A stretch of 64,000 bases of DNA from Streptomyces aquilus (GTDB lineage: Bacteria > Actinomycetota > Actinomycetes > Streptomycetales > Streptomycetaceae). Location of the stretch: NCBI RefSeq assembly GCF_003955715.1, contig NZ_CP034463.1:5208001-5272000 (forward strand), written 5' to 3'. A program made the translations under genes and the position numbers. The notes under the pieces are model-generated. The model was not told where the DNA came from and did no database searches. It saw only the letters and a program-made list of their open reading frames with translations. Positions 2-26,693 of this stretch are shown piece by piece (positions within the stretch are counted from its first letter, which is position 1; the number at the start of each line of letters is the position of its first letter).

Positions 2-604
2 CACGACTCCCGGGTCACCCAGCGCTACCTGGAACGCATGAAGAACGTCCACGTCCTCGACGACGGCCGCGCCGAGACCGTCGCCGGGCTGCGCTTCGCG
101 GGGCTGGGCGATCCCCAGTTCACGCCCGACCGCAGCGAGAAGTCCGGCGCCCAGGAGACCCAGGAGGCGGCCGGCGCCCGGCTCGCGGCGTCGCTGCGGG
201 ACTGGACGACCGCCGGGAAGCCCGTCGACGTCGCCGTGATCCACGAGCCCTCCGCCGCCCGCGAGGTCGACGGCTCGGTCCCGCTGGTCCTCTCCGGGCA
301 TCTGCACCACGAGGAGACGGAGGTCATGAGCAACGGCACCCGGCTGCGCGTCGAGGGCTCCACCGGCGGCAGCGGGCTGCGCGCGGTCGAGGGCAAGTAC
401 CCGGACCCGATCGAGGCCTCGATCCTCTACTTCGACCGCGACACCCGCCGCCTCCAGGCCTGGGACTCGATCGAACTGGGCGGCCTCGGCCTGACGACCG
501 CCGAGGTCAGCCGCCATCTCCCGGAGGAGAACCTGCCGGGCGCGACCCGCACGCCGACCCCCTCCCCGACCCCGCCCTCCACCCCTTCCGGCCGGGCTCC
601 CTAA
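2..604 (+). CDS. Metallophosphoesterase, C-terminal part (5' end outside window)
   Basis: The reading frame is open from the first bases of the window, so the N-terminus lies upstream. The visible 200 residues contain the phosphoesterase motif GHLHHE, preceded by a VIHEP segment that matches the metal-binding His region of calcineurin-like phosphoesterases. It probably hydrolyses a phosphoester with two bound metals; the substrate cannot be judged. The last 25 residues are a Pro/Thr/Ser tail (TPTPSPTPPSTPSG), typical of a disordered or wall-associated end in Streptomyces. The gene ends 80 bp before a tRNA cluster. Confidence 0.8.
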   Translation, partial: HDSRVTQRYLERMKNVHVLDDGRAETVAGLRFAGLGDPQFTPDRSEKSGAQETQEAAGARLAASLRDWTTAGKPVDVAVIHEPSAAREVDGSVPLVLSGHLHHEETEVMSNGTRLRVEGSTGGSGLRAVEGKYPDPIEASILYFDRDTRRLQAWDSIELGGLGLTTAEVSRHLPEENLPGATRTPTPSPTPPSTPSGRAP

Positions 605-16308: not shown

Positions 16309-17733
16309 ATGACCGAAACCCAGCGCAAGATCGGCTTCCTCGTCTGCCTCGCCACGATCGTGCTGGCCGTCCTGGACATGCAGATCGTGTCCGCGGCGAC
16401 CGTCCCGATCGTCCGGGACCTCGACCCCGCGCACGGCATCGACAAGATCCCGTGGCTGGTCAGCGCCTTCTCGCTGGCCTCGGCCGCGGTGCTCCCGCTC
16501 TACGGCAAGCTCTGCGACACCCTCGGCGCCAAGCAGGTCTTCCTCGGGGCCGTCGGCACCTTCCTGTTCGGCTCGGCGCTGTGCGGGGCCGCCCAGTCGA
16601 TCGGCCAGCTGATCGCCGCCCGGGCGGTGCAGGGCATCGGCGCCGGCGGGCTGATGAGCGTGACGATGGTGGTGATCGCCCAGCTCAAGGGGCCCGGCAA
16701 GGAGAAGGACAGCAAGGGCGCCGGCATGGGCGGCATCGTCGCGGGCGGCGGCATGGCGCTCGGTCCGTGGATCGGCGGAGTGCTCTCCGACCACGCGAGC
16801 TGGCGCTGGATCTTCTACGTCAACCTGCCCATCGGCATCACGGTCCTCGCCGTGTCCGCGCTGGTCCTGAAACTCCCCCGGCACACCGAGCGGCACCGCA
16901 TCGACTTCCCCGGCGCGGCCCTCGCCGCCGGCTTCTCCACCACGCTGCTGCTGGTCACCGAGTGGGGCGGCAAGGCGTACGACTGGACGTCCCCGCAGGT
17001 CATCGGAGTGGCGCTGGCTTCAGCCGCCTCGCTCGCGCTGTTCCTGCGCCGGCAGAAGACCGCCGCCGAGCCGATCCTGCCGCTGTCCATGTTCCGGGTC
17101 CCGGAGCTGCGCTGGGGCTTCGCCATCCAGGGGCTCGTCGGCGCGGCCATGGTCGGCTCGATGTACTACGTGATGGTCTATCTCCAGGTCGTCCGCTCCA
17201 TCGCGAGCTCCTCGGCGGGCCTGTACCTCATCCCCATGGCGATCGGCATGACCGTGGTCGGCGTCGTCACCGGCAAGCTCACCGAACGCGGCTGGTCCGA
17301 GCGGACGTTCGTGATCACCGGGTCCGCCGTCACCGCGGTCGCCTTCCTGCTGCTGGCCACCACCGGCACCCACACCTCACTGTGGTGGCTGCGCGCCGAA
17401 CTGCTCCTCGTCGGCGCCGGGTTCGGCCAGCTGATCGGCCAGCTCATCCAGCTCGTCCAGTACGCGGCACCCCGCCACCAGCTCGGGGTCGCCACCACCG
17501 GCATCCGCTTCTTCCAGACCCTCGGCACGGCCCTGGGCGCCGCTCTGTTCGGCACCCTGATCAGCAGGCTGAGCGACGGCACGGACATGCCGTCGTACGT
17601 CTCCGCCATGGACGCGGTGTTCCTGTGCGGGGCCGCGCTGATGGGGCTCGGGGTGGTGCTGGCGCTGCGGCTGCCGAAGGCGGGGCCCGCGTCCTCGGAG
17701 CGCGTCCCCGCTCCCGTGCCGGTCGGGAACTGA
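16309..17733 (+). CDS. MFS drug/proton antiporter, DHA2 (14-helix) type
   Basis: A 474-residue membrane exporter. The ATG at 16309 gives the usual short cytoplasmic start (MTETQRKIGFLVCLATIV); an upstream ATG at 16255 would leave only 24 bp of divergent promoter. Family motifs are LDMQIVSAATVPIVRDL (helix 1), PLYGKLCDTLGAKQ (motif A) and RAVQGIGAGGLMSV with GPWIGGVLSDH (motif C). About 14 membrane segments can be counted. It likely expels a toxic compound and is paired with the divergent TetR gene. The stop codon lies inside a 22-bp tandem duplication (17721-17764). Confidence 0.88.
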   Translation: MTETQRKIGFLVCLATIVLAVLDMQIVSAATVPIVRDLDPAHGIDKIPWLVSAFSLASAAVLPLYGKLCDTLGAKQVFLGAVGTFLFGSALCGAAQSIGQLIAARAVQGIGAGGLMSVTMVVIAQLKGPGKEKDSKGAGMGGIVAGGGMALGPWIGGVLSDHASWRWIFYVNLPIGITVLAVSALVLKLPRHTERHRIDFPGAALAAGFSTTLLLVTEWGGKAYDWTSPQVIGVALASAASLALFLRRQKTAAEPILPLSMFRVPELRWGFAIQGLVGAAMVGSMYYVMVYLQVVRSIASSSAGLYLIPMAIGMTVVGVVTGKLTERGWSERTFVITGSAVTAVAFLLLATTGTHTSLWWLRAELLLVGAGFGQLIGQLIQLVQYAAPRHQLGVATTGIRFFQTLGTALGAALFGTLISRLSDGTDMPSYVSAMDAVFLCGAALMGLGVVLALRLPKAGPASSERVPAPVPVGN

Positions 17734-17764
17734 GAGCGACTCGGTCGGGAACTGAGAGCGACTC
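17721..17764. repeat. 22-bp exact tandem duplication at the MFS stop codon
   Basis: The unit GGTCGGGAACTGAGAGCGAC plus TC occurs twice in a row (17721-17742 and 17743-17764). The first copy carries the codons for the last residues and the TGA stop; the second is non-coding. A recent replication-slippage event is likely. Confidence 0.9.
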
Positions 17765-17774
17765 GGCCACGCAT

Positions 17775-17808
17775 GAAGGCCCCGGCCGTCGCAACGGCCG
17801 GGGCCTTC
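17775..17808. terminator. Bidirectional terminator between MFS gene and purL
   Basis: A perfect 15-bp stem (17775-17789 with 17794-17808) with a 4-nt loop, between the convergent stops of the MFS gene and purL. Confidence 0.88.
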
Positions 17809-17824
17809 ACAGGCGTGTCACCGA

Positions 17825-20083
17825 CTACGCGAGCAGCGCCGGGATCGTCTCCTCGTGGGCCTTCTTCAGCTCCTCCAGGGAGAGCGCGAACTCGCCCTGG
17901 ATCTCCACGGTTTCGCCGTCGACGACACCGATGCGGGTGACCGGCAGGCCCCGCGCACCGCACATGTCGTTAAAGCGGACCTCCTCGGAACGCGGCACGG
18001 CGACGACCGCGCGGCCCGCCGACTCGGAGAAGAGGAAGGTGAAGGCGTCGAGCCCGTCCGGGACGACCAGACGCGCGCCCTTGCCGCCGAGCAGCGCCGA
18101 CTCCACGACCGCCTGGATCAGGCCGCCGTCGGACAGGTCGTGCGCCGAGTCGATCATGCCGTCGCGGGAGGCCGAGATCAGGATCTCCGCGAGGAGGCGC
18201 TCACGCTCCAGGTCCACCTTCGGGGGCAGACCGCCCAGGTGGTCGTGGACGACCTGGGACCAGGCCGAGCCGCCGAACTCCTCACGCGTGTCGCCGAGGA
18301 GGTAGAGCAGCTGGCCCTCCTCCTGGAAGGCGACGGGCGTGCGGCGGGCGACGTCGTCGATGACGCCGAGCACCGCGACCACGGGGGTCGGGTGGATGGC
18401 GACCTCGCCGGTCTGGTTGTAGAGCGAGACATTGCCGCCGGTCACCGGGGTGCCCAACTGCTGGCAGGCGTCGGCGAGTCCACGGATGGCCTCCGCGAAC
18501 TGCCACATCACGGCCGGGTCCTCGGGCGAACCGAAGTTGAGGCAGTCGGAGACGGCGAGCGGCTTGGCACCGGTGGTGGCGACGTTGCGGTACGCCTCCG
18601 CCAGCGCCAACTGGGCGCCGTGGTACGGGTCCAGCTTGGCGTAGCGGCCGTTGCCGTCCGTCGCGATGGCGACGCCGAGGCCGGTCTCCTCGTCGATGCG
18701 GATCATGCCCGAGTCCTCGGGCTGGGCCAGCACCGTGTTGCCCTGCACGAAGTGGTCGTACTGGGACGTGATCCACTTCTTGGAGGCCTGGTTCGGGGAC
18801 GACACGAGCTTCAGGACCTGCTGCTTCAGCTCGTCCGAAGTCGCGGGCCGAGGAAGCTTGTTGGCGTCATCGGCCTGGAGCTCGTCCTGCCAGGACGGGC
18901 GGGCGTACGGGCGCTCGTAGACCGGGCCGTCGTGCGCGACCGTGCGCGGGTCGACGTCGACGATCTTGCCGCCGTGCCAGTAGATCTCCAGCCGGTCGCC
19001 GTCGGTCACCTCACCGATGACGGTGGCGATGACGTCCCACTTGTCGCAGATCTCCAGGAACCGGTCGACCTTCTCCGGCTCCACGACCGCACACATCCGT
19101 TCCTGCGACTCGCTCATGAGGATTTCCTCGGGAGAGAGCGTCGAGTCACGCAGGGGGACGTCGTCGAGGGTGACGCGCATGCCGCCGGAACCGTTGGAGG
19201 CCAGCTCGGACGTGGCACAGGACAGACCGGCCGCGCCGAGGTCCTGGATGCCGACGACCAGCTTCTCCTTGAAGGCCTCCAGGGTGCACTCGATGAGGAG
19301 CTTCTCCTGGAAGGGGTCGCCGACCTGGACGGCCGGACGCTTCGAGGGCTTGGCGTCGTCGAAGGTCTCGGAGGCCAGGATCGAGGCGCCGCCGATGCCG
19401 TCGCCGCCGGTCCGGGCCCCGTACAGGATGACCTTGTTGCCCGCGCCGGACGCCTTGGCGAGGTGGATGTCCTCGTGCCGCATGACGCCGATGGCACCGG
19501 CGTTGACCAGCGGGTTGCCCTGGTAGCAGGCGTCGAAGACGACCTCGCCGCCGATGTTGGGCAGGCCGAGGCAGTTGCCGTAGCCGCCGATGCCGGCGAC
19601 GACACCCGGCAGGACGCGCTTGGTGTCGGGGTGGTCGGCGGCGCCGAAGCGCAGCGGGTCGACCACGGCCACCGGGCGGGCACCCATCGCGATGATGTCG
19701 CGGACGATGCCGCCGACACCCGTGGCCGCGCCCTGGTAGGGCTCGACGTAGGAGGGGTGGTTGTGCGACTCGACCTTGAAGGTCACGGCGTAACCCTGGC
19801 CGACGTCCACGACGCCCGCGTTCTCGCCGATGCCGACGAGGAGGGCGTCGCTCTGCGGGGCCTTCTCGCCGAACTGGCGGAGGTGGACCTTGGAGGACTT
19901 GTAGGAGCAGTGCTCGGACCACATGACCGAGTACATGGCCAGTTCCGCGCCGGTGGGGCGGCGGCCGAGGATCTCGACGACCCTCTCGTACTCGTCCTTC
20001 TTGAGACCGAGTTCGGCCCAGGGCAGCTCGACGTCGGGGGTCGCGGCCGCGTGCTCGACCGTGTCCAGAGGCGTCCGGCTCAT
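17825..20083 (-). CDS. purL: Phosphoribosylformylglycinamidine synthase subunit PurL
   Basis: A 752-residue small-type PurL (not the 1300-residue fused form), which needs PurQ and PurS. It uses ATP and ammonia from PurQ to convert FGAR to FGAM. ATG 20083 overlaps the purQ stop (ATGA), and the protein begins [20 protein letters not shown]. Motifs seen are [35 protein letters not shown], and in the second half [17 protein letters not shown] with [11 protein letters not shown]. Third gene of the purS-purQ-purL operon. Confidence 0.97.
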
Positions 20084-20760
20084 GCGTTGACCAGCTTCTT
20101 GAGGATCGAGGTGAAGAAGGGGAGGCCGTCGGTGCGGCCCGACCCGATGAGCGGCTCGACGGCGTGCTCCGGGTGCGGCATGAGGCCCACGACGTTGCCG
20201 GCCTCGTTGGTGATGCCGGCGATGTCGCGCAGCGAGCCGTTGGGGTTGAAGTCCACGTACCGGAAGGCGACGCGGCCCTCGGCCTCGAGCTTGTCGAGGG
20301 TGTACTCGTCGGCGACGTACCGGCCGTCCATGTTCTTCAGCGGGATGTGGATCTCCTGGCCCGCGCTGTAGTCGACCGTCCACGCACTGGAGGTGTTCTC
20401 CACCCGCAGCTTCTGGTCGCGGCAGATGAAGTGCAGGTGGTCGTTGCCGAGCATCCCGCCCGGGAGGAGGTGGGCCTCCGTGAGGATCTGGAAGCCGTTG
20501 CAGATACCGAGGACCGGGAGGCCGGCCTTCGCCTGCTCGATGACCGTCTCCATCACCGGCGAGAAGCGGGAGATGGCGCCGGCCCGCAGATAGTCGCCGT
20601 AGGAGAAACCACCCGGGAGGACGACCGCGTCCACCTGGTGGAGGTCCTTGTCCTTGTGCCAGAGGGCGACCGGTTCGGCGCCCGCGAGGCGGATCGCGCG
20701 CTGGGTGTCCCGGTCGTCGAGACTCCCCGGGAAAGTGACGACGCCAATACGAGCGGTCAC
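20080..20760 (-). CDS. purQ: Phosphoribosylformylglycinamidine synthase glutaminase subunit PurQ
   Basis: A 226-residue class I glutamine amidotransferase. The nucleophile is Cys87 in LGICNGFQ; the His/Glu partners are in [10 protein letters not shown]. It supplies ammonia to PurL. The GTG start at 20760 overlaps the purS stop (GTGA), and its own stop overlaps the purL start (ATGA), so the three are translationally coupled at equal dose. Confidence 0.97.
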
Positions 20761-21020
20761 TTCGCGGCCTCCGCGACTTCTTCCACCTTCACCGTGAAGT
20801 CCTCGATCACGGTGTTGGCGAGGAAGGATTCCGCAAGATCATGGATGCGGGCGAGCGCGGCCTCGTCGACCGGCCCGTCAACTTCCAGTTCGAAACGCTT
20901 TCCCTGACGGACGTCCGAGATGCCTTCGAAACCCAGACGCGGCAGTGCGCGCTGCACCGCCTGGCCCTGGGGGTCGAGGATCTCCGGCTTGAGCATGACG
21001 TCGACTACGACGCGTGCCAC
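20757..21020 (-). CDS. purS: Phosphoribosylformylglycinamidine synthase subunit PurS
   Basis: An 87-residue PurS, the small structural subunit that joins PurL and PurQ. GTG 21020 is preceded by GGGAG at 5 nt; a second GTG six bases upstream (21026) is possible but lies too close to that site. The sequence [19 protein letters not shown] is the family hallmark. First gene of the purSQL operon, divergent from the Lsr2-like gene. Confidence 0.95.
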
Positions 21021-21246
21021 TGGCACTCCCGGTGTGTGGTGCTGAGCAAGGTTCCTGCGGGTGTCCTCCAACAGGCACCTTCAGACTACCCGCACAAAAT
21101 TTCTACGCGCGTTGACTTGTAGGAAGCTACGTGACCCCAGTCACGATCCGGCATCAGGGGCGGCGTTCACCAAAATTTCCAGGAAAGATCCGCGATCGAC
21201 ACCCGATACCTATTGCGCTCGGACACGCCAAAGGATTTAGTCGGGC

Positions 21247-21293
21247 TTCACAATGCATTGTCGGGCACTGTACAAATGAATTGACAAAGTGCC
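21247..21293 (+). promoter_or_regulatory. Candidate promoter and inverted repeat upstream of the Lsr2-like gene
   Basis: TTCACA (21247-21252) and TACAAA (21271-21276), spaced 18 nt, form a possible promoter. GGCACT (21264-21269) and AGTGCC (21288-21293) form an inverted repeat around the -10 region. The whole stretch is unusually AT-rich for this genome, as expected for a self-regulating Lsr2-type protein. Confidence 0.35.
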
Positions 21294-21313
21294 GTACGAA
21301 GGGACCGATATTC

Positions 21314-21631
21314 GTGGCGCAGAAGGTCGTGGTCACTCTCTTTGACGACATCGACGGCTCGGAAGCGGCGGAAACCATCGCCTTCGGACTCGACGGCAAG
21401 TCGTACGAGATCGACCTGAATCAGGTGAATGCCGAGAAACTGCGTAAGGCCCTCGAGCCCTACGTGGAAGCCGGCCGGAAGCGCTCCCGGTCCGGCAAGG
21501 CGTACAAGCAGACCGAGGTCGCTCCCGACCCGGCGGCGGTCCGCGCCTGGGCCCAGGCGAACAAGATGGACGTGCCGGCCCGCGGCCGCATCCCCAAGAA
21601 GGTCTACGAGGCGTTCGCCGAGGCGCAGTAG
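21314..21631 (+). CDS. lsrL: Lsr2-like nucleoid-associated protein (LsrL type)
   Basis: A 105-residue Lsr2 family protein starting at GTG 21314 behind GAAGGGA. The N-terminal dimerisation domain reads AQKVVVTLFDDIDGSEAAETIAFGLDGKSYEIDL. The C-terminal DNA-binding domain has VRAWAQANKMDVPARGRIPKKVYEAF, whose RGRIP is the AT-hook-like minor-groove motif. Lsr2 proteins silence AT-rich and acquired genes. Streptomyces carries two; the copy beside purSQL is, by recalled gene order, LsrL rather than the main Lsr2. Its promoter region is AT-rich. Confidence 0.92.
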   Translation: MAQKVVVTLFDDIDGSEAAETIAFGLDGKSYEIDLNQVNAEKLRKALEPYVEAGRKRSRSGKAYKQTEVAPDPAAVRAWAQANKMDVPARGRIPKKVYEAFAEAQ

Positions 21632-21753
21632 CCCCGTCGACGCCCGGTCACCCGCCCCTCGGGACAACCGACTTGCGCTGCACCCCTCCTGGTCGGCTAG
21701 AGTCTGGAGCACGCCGAGGGGCGAGGCCGGAAGGCCCAGCTCACGGAGTACAT

Positions 21754-21825
21754 GCGGGTGTAGTTCAGTAGCAGAACATCCCCCTTCCAGGGGGAAGGCG
21801 CAGTGTGCAATTCCTGTCACCCGCT
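21754..21825 (+). tRNA. Atypical tRNA-Gly (TCC) with broken T-arm
   Basis: A 72-nt gene with perfect acceptor GCGGGTG/CACCCGC, D-stem GTTC/GAAC, anticodon stem TCCCC/GGGGA and anticodon TCC. The D-loop is AGTAGCA, without the adjacent G18G19. The T region reads CAGTG-TGCAATT-CCTGT: in standard register only one Watson-Crick pair forms, and the invariant T55 is G (GTGC instead of GTTC). A shifted 3-4 bp stem CAG/CTG with a 10-nt loop is possible. So the G18-Psi55 contact is lost on both sides. It may be a non-elongator tRNA or a decaying gene; see findings. Confidence 0.85.
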
Positions 21826-21905
21826 CTGCATCACCGGTCTGGTCCCTCTTGTGGATCAGGTAGGATGGTGCTCGCGCCGGTCGGTGAGAGCTGACCGGAG
21901 GCAAT

Positions 21906-21978
21906 GCGAACGTAGCTCAGTTGGTAGAGCGCAACCTTGCCAAGGTTGAGGTCGCGAGTTCGAACCTCGTCGTTCGCT
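21906..21978 (+). tRNA. tRNA-Gly (GCC), copy 1
   Basis: A canonical 73-nt cloverleaf with acceptor GCGAACG/CGTTCGC, D-loop with GG, anticodon GCC and T-arm CGAGTTCGAACCTCG. Identical to the copy at 25676-25748. Followed by a terminator. Confidence 0.95.
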
Positions 21979-21986
21979 CTTGATGA

Positions 21987-22014
21987 AAGCCCCCCGGCTT
22001 CTGCCGGGGGGCTT
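21987..22014 (+). terminator. Terminator of tRNA-Gly genes
   Basis: A perfect 12-bp stem (21987-21998 with 22003-22014) with a TTCT loop, followed by CTTCGT. Confidence 0.88.
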
Positions 22015-22045
22015 CTTCGTGTGCGGAGTGGTTGCGGGGTGCCTC

Positions 22046-22072
22046 TGACATTTGTCATGCCGAGTGATGACA
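22046..22072. promoter_or_regulatory. DesR/LiaR-type inverted-repeat operator before the ABC/two-component operon
   Basis: TGACA-TT-TGTCA (22046-22057) is followed by ATGACA (22067-22072), so the central TGTCAT also pairs with ATGACA across 8 nt. NarL-family regulators bind this kind of TGACA/TGTCA element. It ends 43 nt before the ATPase start codon. The operon's own response regulator is the likely ligand; that is inference. Confidence 0.6.
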
Positions 22073-22115
22073 GCGCGCACTCCTTCCGGGTCCCCGGCGC
22101 CGGGACGCTTGCACC

Positions 22116-23045
22116 ATGGACACGAACACGAACGTGATTGAGGTCACCGACCTGCGACGCGTCTACGGGGGCGGGTTCGAGGCGGTCCGCGGAATCAGCT
22201 TCTCCGTGGCCCGCGGCGAGGTCTTCGCTCTGCTCGGCACCAACGGGGCCGGCAAGACGTCCACGGTCGAGCTGCTGGAAGGGCTCGCGCCACCGGCCGG
22301 GGGCCGGGTGCGGGTACTCGGGCACGATCCCTACGCCGAGCGGGCCGCCGTACGGCCGCGGACCGGCGTGATGCTCCAGGAGGGCGGGTTCCCGTCCGAG
22401 CTGACCGTCGCCGAGACCGCCCGGATGTGGGCGGGGTGCGTGAGCGGGGCCAGGCCGCCCGTCGAGGCGCTGGAGCTCGTCGGGCTCGCGCGCCGGAGCG
22501 ACGTACGCGTGAAGCAGTTGTCCGGGGGTGAGCGGCGGCGGCTGGATCTCGCGCTCGCGCTGCTCGGGCGGCCCGAGGTGCTGTTCCTGGACGAGCCGAC
22601 GACCGGGCTCGACGCCGAGGGGCGCCGGGACACCTGGGAGTTGGTGCGGGCGCTGCGCGACGGCGGCACCACGGTGCTGCTGACCACGCACTATCTGGAG
22701 GAGGCCGAGGGCCTCGCCGACCGGCTCGCCATCCTGCACGAGGGGCGGATCGCGGTCACCGGGACGCCCGCCGAGGTGACGGCCGGGCAGCCCTCGCGGA
22801 TCTCCTTCGAGCTGCCCCAGGGGTACTTCGTGGGCGATCTGCCACCGCTCGGGGAGCTGGGGGTGCTCTCCCACGAGGTCGACGGACGGGTCGTACGGCT
22901 GCGGACGCGGGAGTTGCAGCGGGTGGCCACCGAAGTGCTGGTGTGGGCGTCCACGGCGGGGGTCGAGCTGCGGGGGCTCGATGTGCGGTCGGCCTCGCTG
23001 GAGGAGGCGTTCCTGGGGATCGCGGCTCAGGAGGTCAGGGCATGA
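22116..23045 (+). CDS. ABC transporter ATP-binding protein (ABC-2 exporter)
   Basis: A 309-residue ATPase with Walker A GTNGAGKTS (residues 41-49), signature LSGGER (135-140), and Walker B LFLDEPTTGLD. The C-terminal 90 residues (ISFELPQGYFVGDL onward) are the extension found in drug and antibiotic exporters of the DrrA/CcmA type. It energises export by the next gene's permease, which it overlaps by ATGA. First gene of a four-gene operon (ATPase, permease, sensor kinase, regulator). Confidence 0.93.
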   Translation: MDTNTNVIEVTDLRRVYGGGFEAVRGISFSVARGEVFALLGTNGAGKTSTVELLEGLAPPAGGRVRVLGHDPYAERAAVRPRTGVMLQEGGFPSELTVAETARMWAGCVSGARPPVEALELVGLARRSDVRVKQLSGGERRRLDLALALLGRPEVLFLDEPTTGLDAEGRRDTWELVRALRDGGTTVLLTTHYLEEAEGLADRLAILHEGRIAVTGTPAEVTAGQPSRISFELPQGYFVGDLPPLGELGVLSHEVDGRVVRLRTRELQRVATEVLVWASTAGVELRGLDVRSASLEEAFLGIAAQEVRA

Positions 23046-23821
23046 GCGCCGTGGTCGACCGGATGGCGGTGGGTCGGGTGAAGGCCCTCGCGCGGGCCGA
23101 GCTGACGCTCTTCGGGCGCAGCAAGGGAATGATCGTCACCGCGGTGTTCGTGCCGCTGGTGCTGCCGTTGAGTGTGCGGACCGTGGCCGAGGACATGGAT
23201 CTGAAGGGCACCGGGCTCAGCGTCGGGACGGTGCTGCTGCCGGGGGCGATCGGGTTCTCGCTGCTGTTCGCGGTGTACTCGGCGCTGGTCGGCGTCTTCG
23301 TCGGGCGGCGCGAGGAACTCGTCCTCAAGCGCCTGCGGACGGGAGAGCTGCGGGACGGCGAGATCCTCGCCGGGACCGCGCTGCCGGCCGTGACGACGGG
23401 GCTCGTGCAGTCCCTGGTGCTGGCCGCGGCCTGCACCGCCCTGCTCGACATCCCGGCCCCGAGGGCACCGCACCTCGCCGTCCTGGGCCTGCTGCTCGGG
23501 CTCGCGGTGAGTGCCCTGCTGGCCGCCGTCACCGCGGCGTTCACCCGGACCGTGGAGAGCGCTCAGGTCACGGCGTTGCCGCTGGTGATGGTCGCCATGG
23601 TGGGGTCGGGGATCGCCGTCCCGCTGGAGCTGCTGCCGGACCGGATGGCCTCGGTGTGCGAGCTGCTGCCGCTGACCCCGGTGATCACCCTGATCCGCGG
23701 CGGCTGGACCGGCGAGCTCAGCGTGTACGAGACGATCGGGCCGGTGCTGACCGCGCTGGCCTGGGCGGCGGCGGGGGTGTTTGCTGTAGGGCGGTGGTTC
23801 CGGTGGGAGCCGAGGCGCTGA
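23042..23821 (+). CDS. ABC-2 type permease
   Basis: A 259-residue membrane protein with about six hydrophobic segments and the ABC-2 layout: an N-terminal cytoplasmic helix (VKALARAELTLFGRSKG), then paired helices and the final LLPLTPVITLIRGGWTG segment typical of the family. The start overlaps the ATPase stop. It forms the membrane channel of the exporter; the cargo is unknown. Confidence 0.9.
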   Translation: MSAVVDRMAVGRVKALARAELTLFGRSKGMIVTAVFVPLVLPLSVRTVAEDMDLKGTGLSVGTVLLPGAIGFSLLFAVYSALVGVFVGRREELVLKRLRTGELRDGEILAGTALPAVTTGLVQSLVLAAACTALLDIPAPRAPHLAVLGLLLGLAVSALLAAVTAAFTRTVESAQVTALPLVMVAMVGSGIAVPLELLPDRMASVCELLPLTPVITLIRGGWTGELSVYETIGPVLTALAWAAAGVFAVGRWFRWEPRR

Positions 23822-23835
23822 GGTACGGGGAGAGC

Positions 23836-25047
23836 ATGCGCAAGCCGGGGAGCTGGTGGGGGCGGAAGAGCACGCCGGCCAAGGTCGAGACGTACACCCG
23901 ATGGTCGTTCCACTTCTTCGCGGTGATCGAGGCGGTCACGGTCGGGCTGCCGCTCCTCGGTGCGATGACGCCCTGGCTCGCCGCTCCGCTGCTGACGCTG
24001 GTGACCGTGCACGCCGTCACCTGTGCCGTGACCGCTTCCCGGGTGCTCGACTGGACGCGCGGGCGGCGCGAGCGGCCCGTCCCCATGCTGTGGACACTCG
24101 GCACGGTGACCGCCGTCGTCGCCGTCACGGCCCTCGGCGTCGCGGAGCGCGGGCCGGGCGGGGACGACGTCCAGACCGCGGCCGGCAGCGTCTTCGGGGT
24201 CATCCTGATCTTCGGTGCCGGCGTCATCGCGATGGGCGTGCGCGAGCGGCGCCGGGTGTACGGCGTCGTCGCCGGGTTCGCGGCCGGGGCGGGGATCGTG
24301 GCCCTCCCGCTGGGGCTGCCCGCGCCCGCCACCCTGGTGACGATGCTGGTCGTGCTGCTCGGCGGCGGGTTCATCGCCTTCACCTCCGCCTTCTCCGTCT
24401 GGCTCCTCAACGCCGTGTACGAACTCGACGAGGCCCGCGAGACCCGGGCGCGGCTCGCCGTCGCCGAGGAACGGCTACGGTTCGGGCGCGATCTGCACGA
24501 CGTCATGGGCCGCAACCTCGCGGTGATCTCGCTGAAGAGCGAGCTCGCCGTGCAGCTGGCCAGGCGCGGGCGGCCCGAGGCCGAGGAGCAGATGATCGAG
24601 GTGCAGCGCATCGCGCAGGAGTCGCAGCGCGAGGTGCGGGAGGTCGTACGCGGCTATCGGGAGGCCGACCTGGGGGTCGAACTCGGCGGCGCCCAGGGCG
24701 TGTTGGCGGCGGCCGGGATCGAGTGCACGGTCAGCGGGGAGGCGGCCGGGCTGCCGCTGGACGTGCAGTCGGCGCTCGGCTGGGTGGTCCGGGAGGCGAC
24801 GACGAACGTCCTGCGGCACGGGGACGCCAAGCGGTGCACGGTGGCCGTGCGGAGGTCGGAGGACGATGTGGTGCTGACGGTGGAGAACGACGGGGCCGCC
24901 GGTCCGTCCGGGCCGGGCGGGTCCGGGCTCGCCGGGCTGCGGGAGCGGCTGGCGGCGGTGGACGGGACGTTGGAGGCGGGGACCGTGCGGGAGGGTGTGT
25001 TCCGTTTGGTGGCACAGGTGCCGATGGTGACAGAGGTGACTCCGTGA
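23836..25047 (+). CDS. Two-component sensor histidine kinase, DesK/NarX-like
   Basis: A 403-residue kinase. Residues 25-195 hold about five to six membrane helices with almost no extracytoplasmic domain, so the signal is probably sensed in the membrane. The HisKA_3 box has phospho-accepting His221 in RDLHDVMG, and the HATPase region includes VREATTNVLRHG and GSGLAGLRERL. ATG 23836 is preceded by GGGGAGAG, 14 bp after the permease stop. It likely senses membrane stress or the exporter's substrate and phosphorylates the next protein. Confidence 0.92.
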   Translation: MRKPGSWWGRKSTPAKVETYTRWSFHFFAVIEAVTVGLPLLGAMTPWLAAPLLTLVTVHAVTCAVTASRVLDWTRGRRERPVPMLWTLGTVTAVVAVTALGVAERGPGGDDVQTAAGSVFGVILIFGAGVIAMGVRERRRVYGVVAGFAAGAGIVALPLGLPAPATLVTMLVVLLGGGFIAFTSAFSVWLLNAVYELDEARETRARLAVAEERLRFGRDLHDVMGRNLAVISLKSELAVQLARRGRPEAEEQMIEVQRIAQESQREVREVVRGYREADLGVELGGAQGVLAAAGIECTVSGEAAGLPLDVQSALGWVVREATTNVLRHGDAKRCTVAVRRSEDDVVLTVENDGAAGPSGPGGSGLAGLRERLAAVDGTLEAGTVREGVFRLVAQVPMVTEVTP

Positions 25048-25652
25048 CCGTGCGGCTGTTGCTGGCCGACGACGAGCATCTGATCCGCGGGGCGCTGGCC
25101 GCGCTGCTCTCGTTGGAGGACGATCTGGCGGTCGTCGCCGAGGCCGCGTCCGGGCCCGAGGCGCTGGCGATGGCCCGGGCGCACGAGCCGGATGTGGCGG
25201 TGCTCGATCTGCAGATGCCGGGGGCCGACGGTGTGAAGGTCGCCACATCGCTGCGGGCCGAACTGCCCGGCTGCCGGGTGCTGATCGTGACCAGTCACGG
25301 CCGGCCCGGCCATCTGAAGCGGGCCCTTGAGGCGGGTGTGCGCGGGTTCGTCCCCAAGACGGTGAGCGCGCAGAAGCTCGCCGAGATCATCCGCACGGTG
25401 TACGCCGGAAACCGTTACGTCGACCCCGAGTTGGCCGCCGACGCGATCTCCGCCGGGGACTCGCCGCTGACCGCGCGCGAGGCCGAGGTGCTGGAACTCG
25501 CCGCCGACGGGGCGCCCGTCGCGGAGATCGCCGAGCGGGCCGCGCTGTCCCAGGGGACCGTGCGGAACTATCTGTCGTCGGCCGTCTCGAAGCTCGGGGC
25601 GGAGAACCGGCACACCGCAGTACGTCTCGCGCGCGAGCGAGGTTGGGTATAG
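25044..25652 (+). CDS. NarL/DesR-family response regulator
   Basis: A 202-residue regulator. The receiver domain has the acidic pair in LLLADDEH, phospho-acceptor Asp55 in VAVLDLQMPG, and Lys in FVPKTVS. The C-terminal LuxR-type helix-turn-helix is SPLTAREAEVLELAADG...SQGTVRNYLSSAVSKL. Its GTG start overlaps the kinase stop (GTGA). Last gene of the operon and the likely reader of the inverted repeat at 22046-22072. Confidence 0.95.
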   Translation: MTVRLLLADDEHLIRGALAALLSLEDDLAVVAEAASGPEALAMARAHEPDVAVLDLQMPGADGVKVATSLRAELPGCRVLIVTSHGRPGHLKRALEAGVRGFVPKTVSAQKLAEIIRTVYAGNRYVDPELAADAISAGDSPLTAREAEVLELAADGAPVAEIAERAALSQGTVRNYLSSAVSKLGAENRHTAVRLARERGWV

Positions 25653-25793: not shown

Positions 25794-26693
25794 TCAGCTC
25801 CAGCTCGTGCCCGTCAGGCGCTCGTATGCCTCGATGTACTTGGCGCGCGTGCGGTCCACGACCTCCTGCGGCAGCGCGGGCGGCGGCTGCTCGCTCTTGC
25901 GGTCCCAGCCGGAGGCCGCCGAGGTCAGCCAGTCCCGCACGAACTGCTTGTCGTACGACGGCTGCGCGTGCCCCGGCTCCCACGACTCGGCCGGCCAGAA
26001 GCGGGAGGAGTCCGGGGTGAGGACCTCGTCGCCGATGACGAGGGTGTCGCCGTCGAAGCCGAACTCGAACTTGGTGTCCGCGAGCAGGATGCCCCGGTCG
26101 CGGGCGATGTCCCGGCCGCGGGTGTAGACGGCGAGGGTGGCCTGGCGCAGCTGGGCGGCGGTGTCGGCGCCGACCTGGCGGGCGACCTCCTCGTACGACA
26201 CGTTCTCGTCGTGCTCGCCGACCGCGGCCTTGGTGGCCGGGGTGAAGATCGGGGCGGGCAGCTCGCTGCCGTCGGACAGGCCCTCGGGGAGGGCGAGGCC
26301 GCAGACCGTACGCGACTCGTTGTACTCCACGAGGCCGGAGCCGGTGAGGTAGCCGCGGGCCACGCACTCGACCGGGACCATCTGGAGCGACTTGCAGACC
26401 ACCGTGCGGCCCGCCCAGTCGGCGGGGGCGCCCTCGGGGACATCGGTGCTGATGATGTGGTTCGGGATCAGGTCGGCGAGCTGGTCGAACCACCACAGGG
26501 AGAGCTGCGTGAGGACCCGGCCCTTGTCCGGGATCTCGGTGGGCAGCACCCAGTCGTACGCGGAGATGCGGTCGCTGGCGACCATCACGAGGTCGCCCGC
26601 CTCGTTCTGGTACAGCTCGCGCACCTTGCCGGTGTGGAGATGCACCAAGCCCGGCACCTGGATCGGCTCGGGCTTTTCTACGAATCCGGACAC
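25794..26693 (-). CDS. purC: SAICAR synthetase PurC
   Basis: A 299-residue phosphoribosylaminoimidazole-succinocarboxamide synthase, which joins aspartate to CAIR with ATP. Motifs are GKVRELYQNEAGDLVMVASDRISAYD at the N-terminus, VECVARGYLTGSG and LADTKFEFGFD, all family hallmarks. It is longer than the 240-residue enterobacterial form and matches the actinobacterial form. It is separated from the next minus gene by 68 bp. Confidence 0.97.
   Translation of the reverse strand: MSGFVEKPEPIQVPGLVHLHTGKVRELYQNEAGDLVMVASDRISAYDWVLPTEIPDKGRVLTQLSLWWFDQLADLIPNHIISTDVPEGAPADWAGRTVVCKSLQMVPVECVARGYLTGSGLVEYNESRTVCGLALPEGLSDGSELPAPIFTPATKAAVGEHDENVSYEEVARQVGADTAAQLRQATLAVYTRGRDIARDRGILLADTKFEFGFDGDTLVIGDEVLTPDSSRFWPAESWEPGHAQPSYDKQFVRDWLTSAASGWDRKSEQPPPALPQEVVDRTRAKYIEAYERLTGTSWS

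Follow-up and report, generated by a model that had tools for sequence, protein, structure and literature searches.

The window, the whole 64-kb stretch of DNA that was analysed, contains a non-canonical tRNA-Gly(TCC) gene at 21754-21825 on the forward strand. The gene is 72 nt long, does not encode the CCA end, and scored 51.1 bits against the Rfam tRNA family (RF00005, cut-off 29), which bears out the tRNA-Gly(TCC) gene that the initial annotation had placed here. ARAGORN called nine tRNAs in the 64-kb window, and the odd tRNA-Gly(TCC) was not among them. Its upstream neighbour is a gene of 105 aa with a GTG start (21314-21631, forward strand), which we take to be lsr2-like, and a homologue of this gene adjoins the odd tRNA in all eight loci that were checked. 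The downstream neighbour at 21906-21979 (forward strand) is an ordinary tRNA-Gly(GCC) found by both ARAGORN and Rfam. Inspection by eye of the window from 17500 to 25600 recognised no fem or mur genes, which counts against a cell-wall reading, and no synthetase gene was recognised by eye beside the odd tRNA. ARAGORN also reported a 95-nt tRNA-Asp at 26129-26223 of the window, which has no Rfam support and is probably a false call.

A promoter-like sequence, TTGCGC-19-TAGAGT, occupies 21673-21703 on the forward strand, and about 45 nt of leader separate it from the gene. The pattern is conserved upstream of other copies of the odd tRNA: TTGnnn-15..20-TAnnnT was found in 101 of 123 non-tandem copies (mean of 0.4 in 20 shuffles), and TAnnGT lay in the expected stretch in 115 of the 123 (mean of 1.8 in 20 shuffles), where both counts leave out copies with a tandem copy upstream and related sequences are not independent. 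These counts support a putative promoter upstream of the odd tRNA. Among the DasR sites given in the accessible part of PMC4398421 are glyS and a tRNA-Gly that lies upstream of SCO3679, which is not shown to be the odd gene.

The acceptor, D and anticodon stems of the odd tRNA are perfect, as had been noted before. The anticodon TCC (21786-21788, forward strand) is preceded by T33 and followed by A37, and it is unchanged in 126 loci that were fetched by BLAST or model via a match to the odd tRNA, a few of which are the same place twice. When set in register with the canonical tRNA-Gly(TCC) of the same genome (L005), the D-loop AGTAGCA at 21767-21773 (forward strand) reads A14 G15 T16 A18 G19 C20 A21. 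The D-loop of the canonical sister is AATGGTA, and G18 alone is replaced in the odd tRNA, with A18 at 21770 and the retained G19 at 21771 (forward strand). The initial annotation had described a D-loop without G18G19; the loss of G18 stands, but G19 and its partner C56 are both retained. The T-loop reads T54 G55 C56 A57 A58, and GTGC does take the place of GTTC, with TGC rather than TTC in the loop. The G18-U55 elbow pair of canonical elongators is absent, since A18 and G55 stand there, whereas the 19:56 pair could still form. An elbow contact removed on both sides was thus too strong a claim.

The T-arm, GCAG(T)G-TGCAATT-C-CTGT at 21800-21817 (forward strand), has a five-pair stem with a bulged U at 21804: G49.U65, C50-G64, A51-U63 and G52-C62 are followed by the bulge and then by G53-C61, and G55 and C56 of the loop are at 21807 and 21808. 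The T-stem is indeed broken in the standard register, as had been described, but five pairs form once a single U is bulged out. In an alignment of 45 distinct 72-nt odd-tRNA sequences (A2), 99.6% of the T-stem cells pair with the bulge vs 40.0% in the standard register, and the standard register was rejected on these values. Canonical elongators have a regular, bulge-free five-pair T-stem, which was not found in the odd tRNA. Among relatives, C is the bulged letter in L208 and the bulge is one pair lower in L177. In the bulged register, 51:63 is A-U in 45/45 distinct sequences, whereas the canonical sister has G51-C63; 49:65 is A-U in six of the 45 and G.U in the other 39, as it is in the window copy. 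Two-sided changes were observed at eight pairs of the acceptor, D and anticodon stems in the 45 sequences, against a shuffle mean of 4.8. The T-stem of the same sequences has no two-sided compensatory change, its sole change being G.U to A-U in the six, and the 13 further pair types are not above shuffles (447 of 500). Folded without constraints, the bare transcript (-30.8 kcal/mol) has a short hairpin in place of the T-arm, as compared with -24.9 kcal/mol for the bulged cloverleaf and -17.2 kcal/mol for the standard register. Because the unconstrained fold prefers another hairpin, the proposed T-arm structure rests on comparison. The glycine identity elements G1-C72, C2-G71, U73, C35 and C36, as listed in the accessible text of PMC9976931, are all in the odd-tRNA sequence.

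The own genome of the odd tRNA (10.39 Mb, one contig) has 74 Rfam tRNA matches; this list is incomplete, as one copy of a second odd type (L063 type, C1:9258345) is missing from it. The other glycine tRNAs are three GCC, one CCC, one canonical TCC and the L063-type odd TCC. The canonical tRNA-Gly(TCC) (L005, C1:3765243) shares with the odd tRNA the anticodon, the acceptor stem type and U73. On the other hand, L005 is 71 nt long and has G18G19, a TTC loop and a regular T-stem with G51-C63, and its neighbour is tRNA-Pro(TGG), unlike the lsr2-like neighbour of the odd tRNA. A second, canonical tRNA-Gly(TCC), whose presence was to be checked, thus exists in the own genome and also in 13/13 family genomes examined, i.e. 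in all 14 genomes checked. Two other features of the tRNA set were seen in passing. Within about 6 kb at C1:8578850-8584944 (L050, L062) lie Arg(GCG), Glu(CTC) and Trp(CCA) tRNAs that score a low 44-58 bits and have an odd D-arm, cagaggcag, common to all three. Identical tRNA-Ile(TAT) genes at C1:8544-8617 and C1:10385371-10385444 (L043, L044) lie in mirror positions close to the two ends of the chromosome and probably belong to terminal inverted repeats.

Conservation of the odd form extends through the genus and to the larger part of the family. The odd tRNA was matched in 150/150 genomes of the genus, the own genome included, with a best match in each at E <= 8.6e-16, while the nearest ordinary tRNA-Gly in the own genome reached 43.7 bits with the same query; 23 of the 150 are identical over 75 nt, and the odd-tRNA sequence itself was read in 50 of the 150. 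A covariance model (R1) gave at least 94.5 bits in 44/44 genus members of the class sample, and no comparable score in the 349 class genomes outside the genus (best 74.9 bits). R1 is not specific at the default E-value, where 393/393 class genomes match, and the score gap alone was used. The class search scored 12 first-look candidates per genome under strict filters, which a far-diverged relative outside the family could escape. At a threshold of 87 bits (lowest 87.0), the odd tRNA is present in 90 of the 121 family genomes, spread over 15 of the 17 genera. Among the 31 family genomes without it, 20 were listed: 16 in genus g135, three in g132, and G559. We did not count G559 as a true loss; its sister G548 has the tRNA, but the lsr2-like orthologue is also missing from G559, and the absence may be an assembly gap or a loss of the whole place. 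In several genomes the odd gene is repeated in tandem, with two or three copies spaced at about 115-160 nt (L096-L101, L122, L125, L132, L219). In a phage collection, the best 20 of 211 records matched solely the downstream tRNA-Gly(GCC). The lone match in the plasmid collection, from a Nonomuraea record, reads as an ordinary tRNA-Gly(CCC). A phage or plasmid origin of the window gene was dropped on the records examined.

This distribution bears on whether the gene is a decaying tRNA pseudogene. Its low score, the missing ARAGORN call and the non-standard T-arm would fit decay. Against it are the 150/150 matches with 23 genomes identical over 75 nt, the two-sided stem changes and the conserved promoter-like site. 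Conservation contradicts a pseudogene, and neither drift nor a broken stem was found. We therefore rejected decay as highly improbable. The earlier remark that the gene is not simply decayed holds up on the genus-wide matches, the compensatory stem changes and the promoter-like site.

Comparison of copies within the family points to an order of changes. An extraction pattern that fixes G19, C56, A58 and TTCCA matched 122 of the 126 loci, and the remaining four, read by eye (L127, a place already counted, and L215-L217, with C16), have A18 G19 G55 C56. Counting as different copies those with different upstream DNA, after removing any whose upstream DNA was shorter than 140 nt or repeated one already counted, we obtained 138 copies: A18 occurs with G55 in 131 and G18 with U55 in seven, and no copy is mixed. 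All seven G18/U55 copies come from Yinghuangia and Embleya (g123 and g126), where the bulge of the T-stem and A51-U63 are already present. A FemX tree of 30 genomes has g123 and g126 as its basal members, with support of 88/99 for the grouping of all others; this tree was rooted with a distant paralogue whose branch is long, and 8 of its 28 inner branches are strongly supported. Since the basal Yinghuangia and Embleya have the bulge and A51-U63 together with G18/U55, the T-stem probably changed first, and the 18:55 pair later on one branch. Because the 18:55 change is one event on the tree, we can only infer selection on the pair itself.

In g132 and g135, two tRNA-Gly(GCC) genes come next after the lsr2-like gene in 7/7 regions (L258-L264), which were chosen for their tandem tRNA-Gly(GCC), and no R1 match above that of the tandem tRNA-Gly(GCC) was found in the seven. 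It is likely that a second tRNA-Gly(GCC) replaced the odd tRNA in these two genera. In the FemX tree, g132 and g135 group together with weak support, next to g124, a genus in which the odd tRNA is present. As the two form one group, a single replacement fits best.

The odd tRNA could also be a slow but working GGA elongator, in which the odd elbow and the bulged T-stem are tolerated or tune decoding while the canonical TCC gene is dominant. The decoding parts are intact (T33, TCC, A37 and a paired anticodon stem), G19, C56, U54 and A58 are retained, and genera without the odd tRNA have the canonical TCC gene and an elongator tRNA-Gly(GCC) at the same place. However, with a canonical TCC gene in 14/14 genomes checked, a redundant copy would be expected to retain or regain G18-U55 and G51-C63, yet the deviating states hold in the copies read. 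We consider such an elongator unlikely. Structure and evolution support a putative non-elongator role for the odd tRNA.

Streptomyces peptidoglycan has a single glycine bridge, which is added by FemX. Four FemAB-family proteins are encoded in the own genome. We take the one at C1:5372781 to be FemX from its alr-like neighbour, a synteny that we recall, and another, at C1:786839, adjoins genes that look by eye murF-like and sensor-kinase-like and is presumably VanK-like. A FemX orthologue is in 30/30 family genomes tested, including 10/10 tested without a detected odd tRNA (one of them, G559, being maybe an assembly gap). Of the 158 class genomes searched, 75 encode a FemX-like protein (E <= 1e-40); as 14 of the 75 belong to the genus, 61 of 144 genomes outside it have one. 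In three FemX-bearing class genomes outside the genus, 12 low-scoring tRNAs were read of 137, and none was a glycine tRNA. A requirement of the odd tRNA for FemX is contradicted by the 10/10 relatives and by the 61/144 genomes outside the genus, where the class search gave no comparable tRNA score. Since FemX occurs without it, the odd tRNA is an added feature of one family that lies outside the basic FemX reaction; judged by these distributions, it is at most a lineage-specific dedicated supply and not a FemX requirement. By the initial annotation, the idea of a dedicated donor of bridge glycine would fall if the gene were the sole tRNA-Gly(TCC) of the genome or if the T-arm decay were confined to this strain, and at the sequence level neither is so. 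The idea is favoured by the canonical TCC gene elsewhere, the conserved odd form and the A51-U63 parallel described below, but not in its dependence on FemX. The FemX link itself is no more than plausible.

A non-elongator Gly-tRNA may instead serve a glycyl transfer or regulation other than FemX, such as natural-product Fem-like or tRNA-dependent ligases, VanK-like enzymes, or glycine-supply sensing. FemX presence does not track the odd tRNA, and the three further FemAB-family proteins in the own genome, one of them the protein beside the murF-like and sensor-kinase-like genes, would offer partners. A partner should nevertheless be about as widespread as the tRNA (150/150 genus genomes), as FemX is. 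tRNA-dependent antibiotic pathways are patchy in distribution. That Gly-tRNA serves antibiotic pathways in Streptomyces and relatives is described, for Orf11 of BD-12 and for DhpK, in the portion of PMC12945691 that was available. We regard a partner other than FemX as quite unlikely.

The closest known parallel to the non-elongator reading comes from staphylococci. Their cell-wall tRNA-Gly has GTGC in the T-loop, and the S. aureus bridge has five glycines, where that of Streptomyces has one. According to the accessible sections of PMC4052509, the non-proteinogenic tRNA-Gly of S. aureus has A49-U65 and A51-U63 in place of G49-U65 and G51-C63, and UU or CU in place of GG at 18-19. One S. aureus cell-wall tRNA-Gly is described, in the available text of PMC8007984, as having D- and T-loop variations, efficient charging, poor recognition by EF-Tu and a role in bridge synthesis. 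As far as these partial sources describe it, the S. aureus tRNA-Gly(UCC) shares with the odd tRNA an extra copy beside a canonical one, a changed position 18, A51-U63, glycine identity and a T-loop variant. By the same sources, other features count against the parallel: where the S. aureus type has A49-U65, the window copy has the strong pair G49.U65, and the odd tRNA keeps G19 and C56 where S. aureus has UU or CU at 18-19. Unlike the S. aureus type as given there, the odd tRNA has a bulged U in the T-stem and a linked A18 and G55. In our analysis, A51-U63, together with A49-U65 in 6/45 distinct relatives, supports a staphylococcal parallel stronger than the one drawn earlier. Because S. aureus is in a different phylum, the odd tRNA most likely has an independent origin. 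The tRNA-ProX mistranslation tRNAs, in the accessible text of PMC10365949, are also non-standard tRNAs of streptomycetes; they have a changed anticodon on a Pro body and a partner ProRSx, whereas the anticodon and body of the odd tRNA are both glycine. No description of the odd tRNA-Gly(TCC) of Streptomyces was found in the open-access literature, as far as its available text extends.

The own genome has a second odd tRNA-Gly(TCC), the L063 type, at C1:9857361-9857433 (reverse strand) and C1:9258345-9258415 (forward strand). This type has G55 (loop TGCAAGG), a regular T-stem and GG in the D-loop, which are also found in L271-L282 and L311-L315, and the copies read appear by eye to have their own promoter-like box and a terminator-like hairpin. 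It occurs in 23 of 61 genus genomes, with up to five copies at scattered places, and in 71 plasmid records at 137 places; no record of the phage collection matched. A search for a partner gene among frames of at least 90 aa in 17 regions found four groups common to at least three regions and none that is general (for L296 and L298, in which no tRNA core could be located, the tRNA was taken to lie in the middle). The largest group is in five of the 17 regions, 1.7-7.6 kb from the tRNA. Another, in three regions at about 130 nt from the tRNA, is probably the element's own DNA read as a frame. Five annotated plasmid regions with the L063 type have no gene in common, and an IS5 transposase lies within 4 kb of it in two.

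Returning to the window gene, its odd shape suggests a job besides protein synthesis, with cell-wall glycine as the most likely one. The ordinary GlyRS would be expected to charge it, because the glycine identity elements are kept. The weaker pair A51-U63, the T-stem bulge and the A18/G55 elbow would then lower its EF-Tu affinity or its use by the ribosome, weak EF-Tu binding being predicted, and the Gly-tRNA pool spared in this way would be available to Fem-type transferases, above all FemX. The reading that we favour, with roughly even confidence, is that the odd tRNA is a lineage-specific tRNA-Gly(UCC) paralogue under selection in Streptomycetaceae, which would stand off the ribosome and supply Fem-type transferases. 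More tentatively, it is possible that in Streptomycetaceae a tRNA-Gly(UCC) was withdrawn from translation in two stages. The T-stem would first have acquired its bulge and A51-U63, and a concerted swap of G18-U55 for A18-G55 would have followed, which kept the L-shape while barring use by EF-Tu or the ribosome. The tRNA would then serve as a glycine supply of its own for the cell wall and for other transfers off the ribosome. The plasmid-borne, dispersed second tRNA-Gly(UCC) with G55 would have reached a similar state independently.

To our knowledge, the only example of Gly-tRNA kept for wall bridges apart from translation is that of staphylococci. ARAGORN can overlook a tRNA that has a match in all sampled genomes of a genus, as it did in this window. 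The second lineage with its different anatomy, the intermediates in Embleya and Yinghuangia, and the genera in which the tRNA appears to have been replaced would make the question of a separate Gly-tRNA in Streptomycetaceae open to comparison and deletion.
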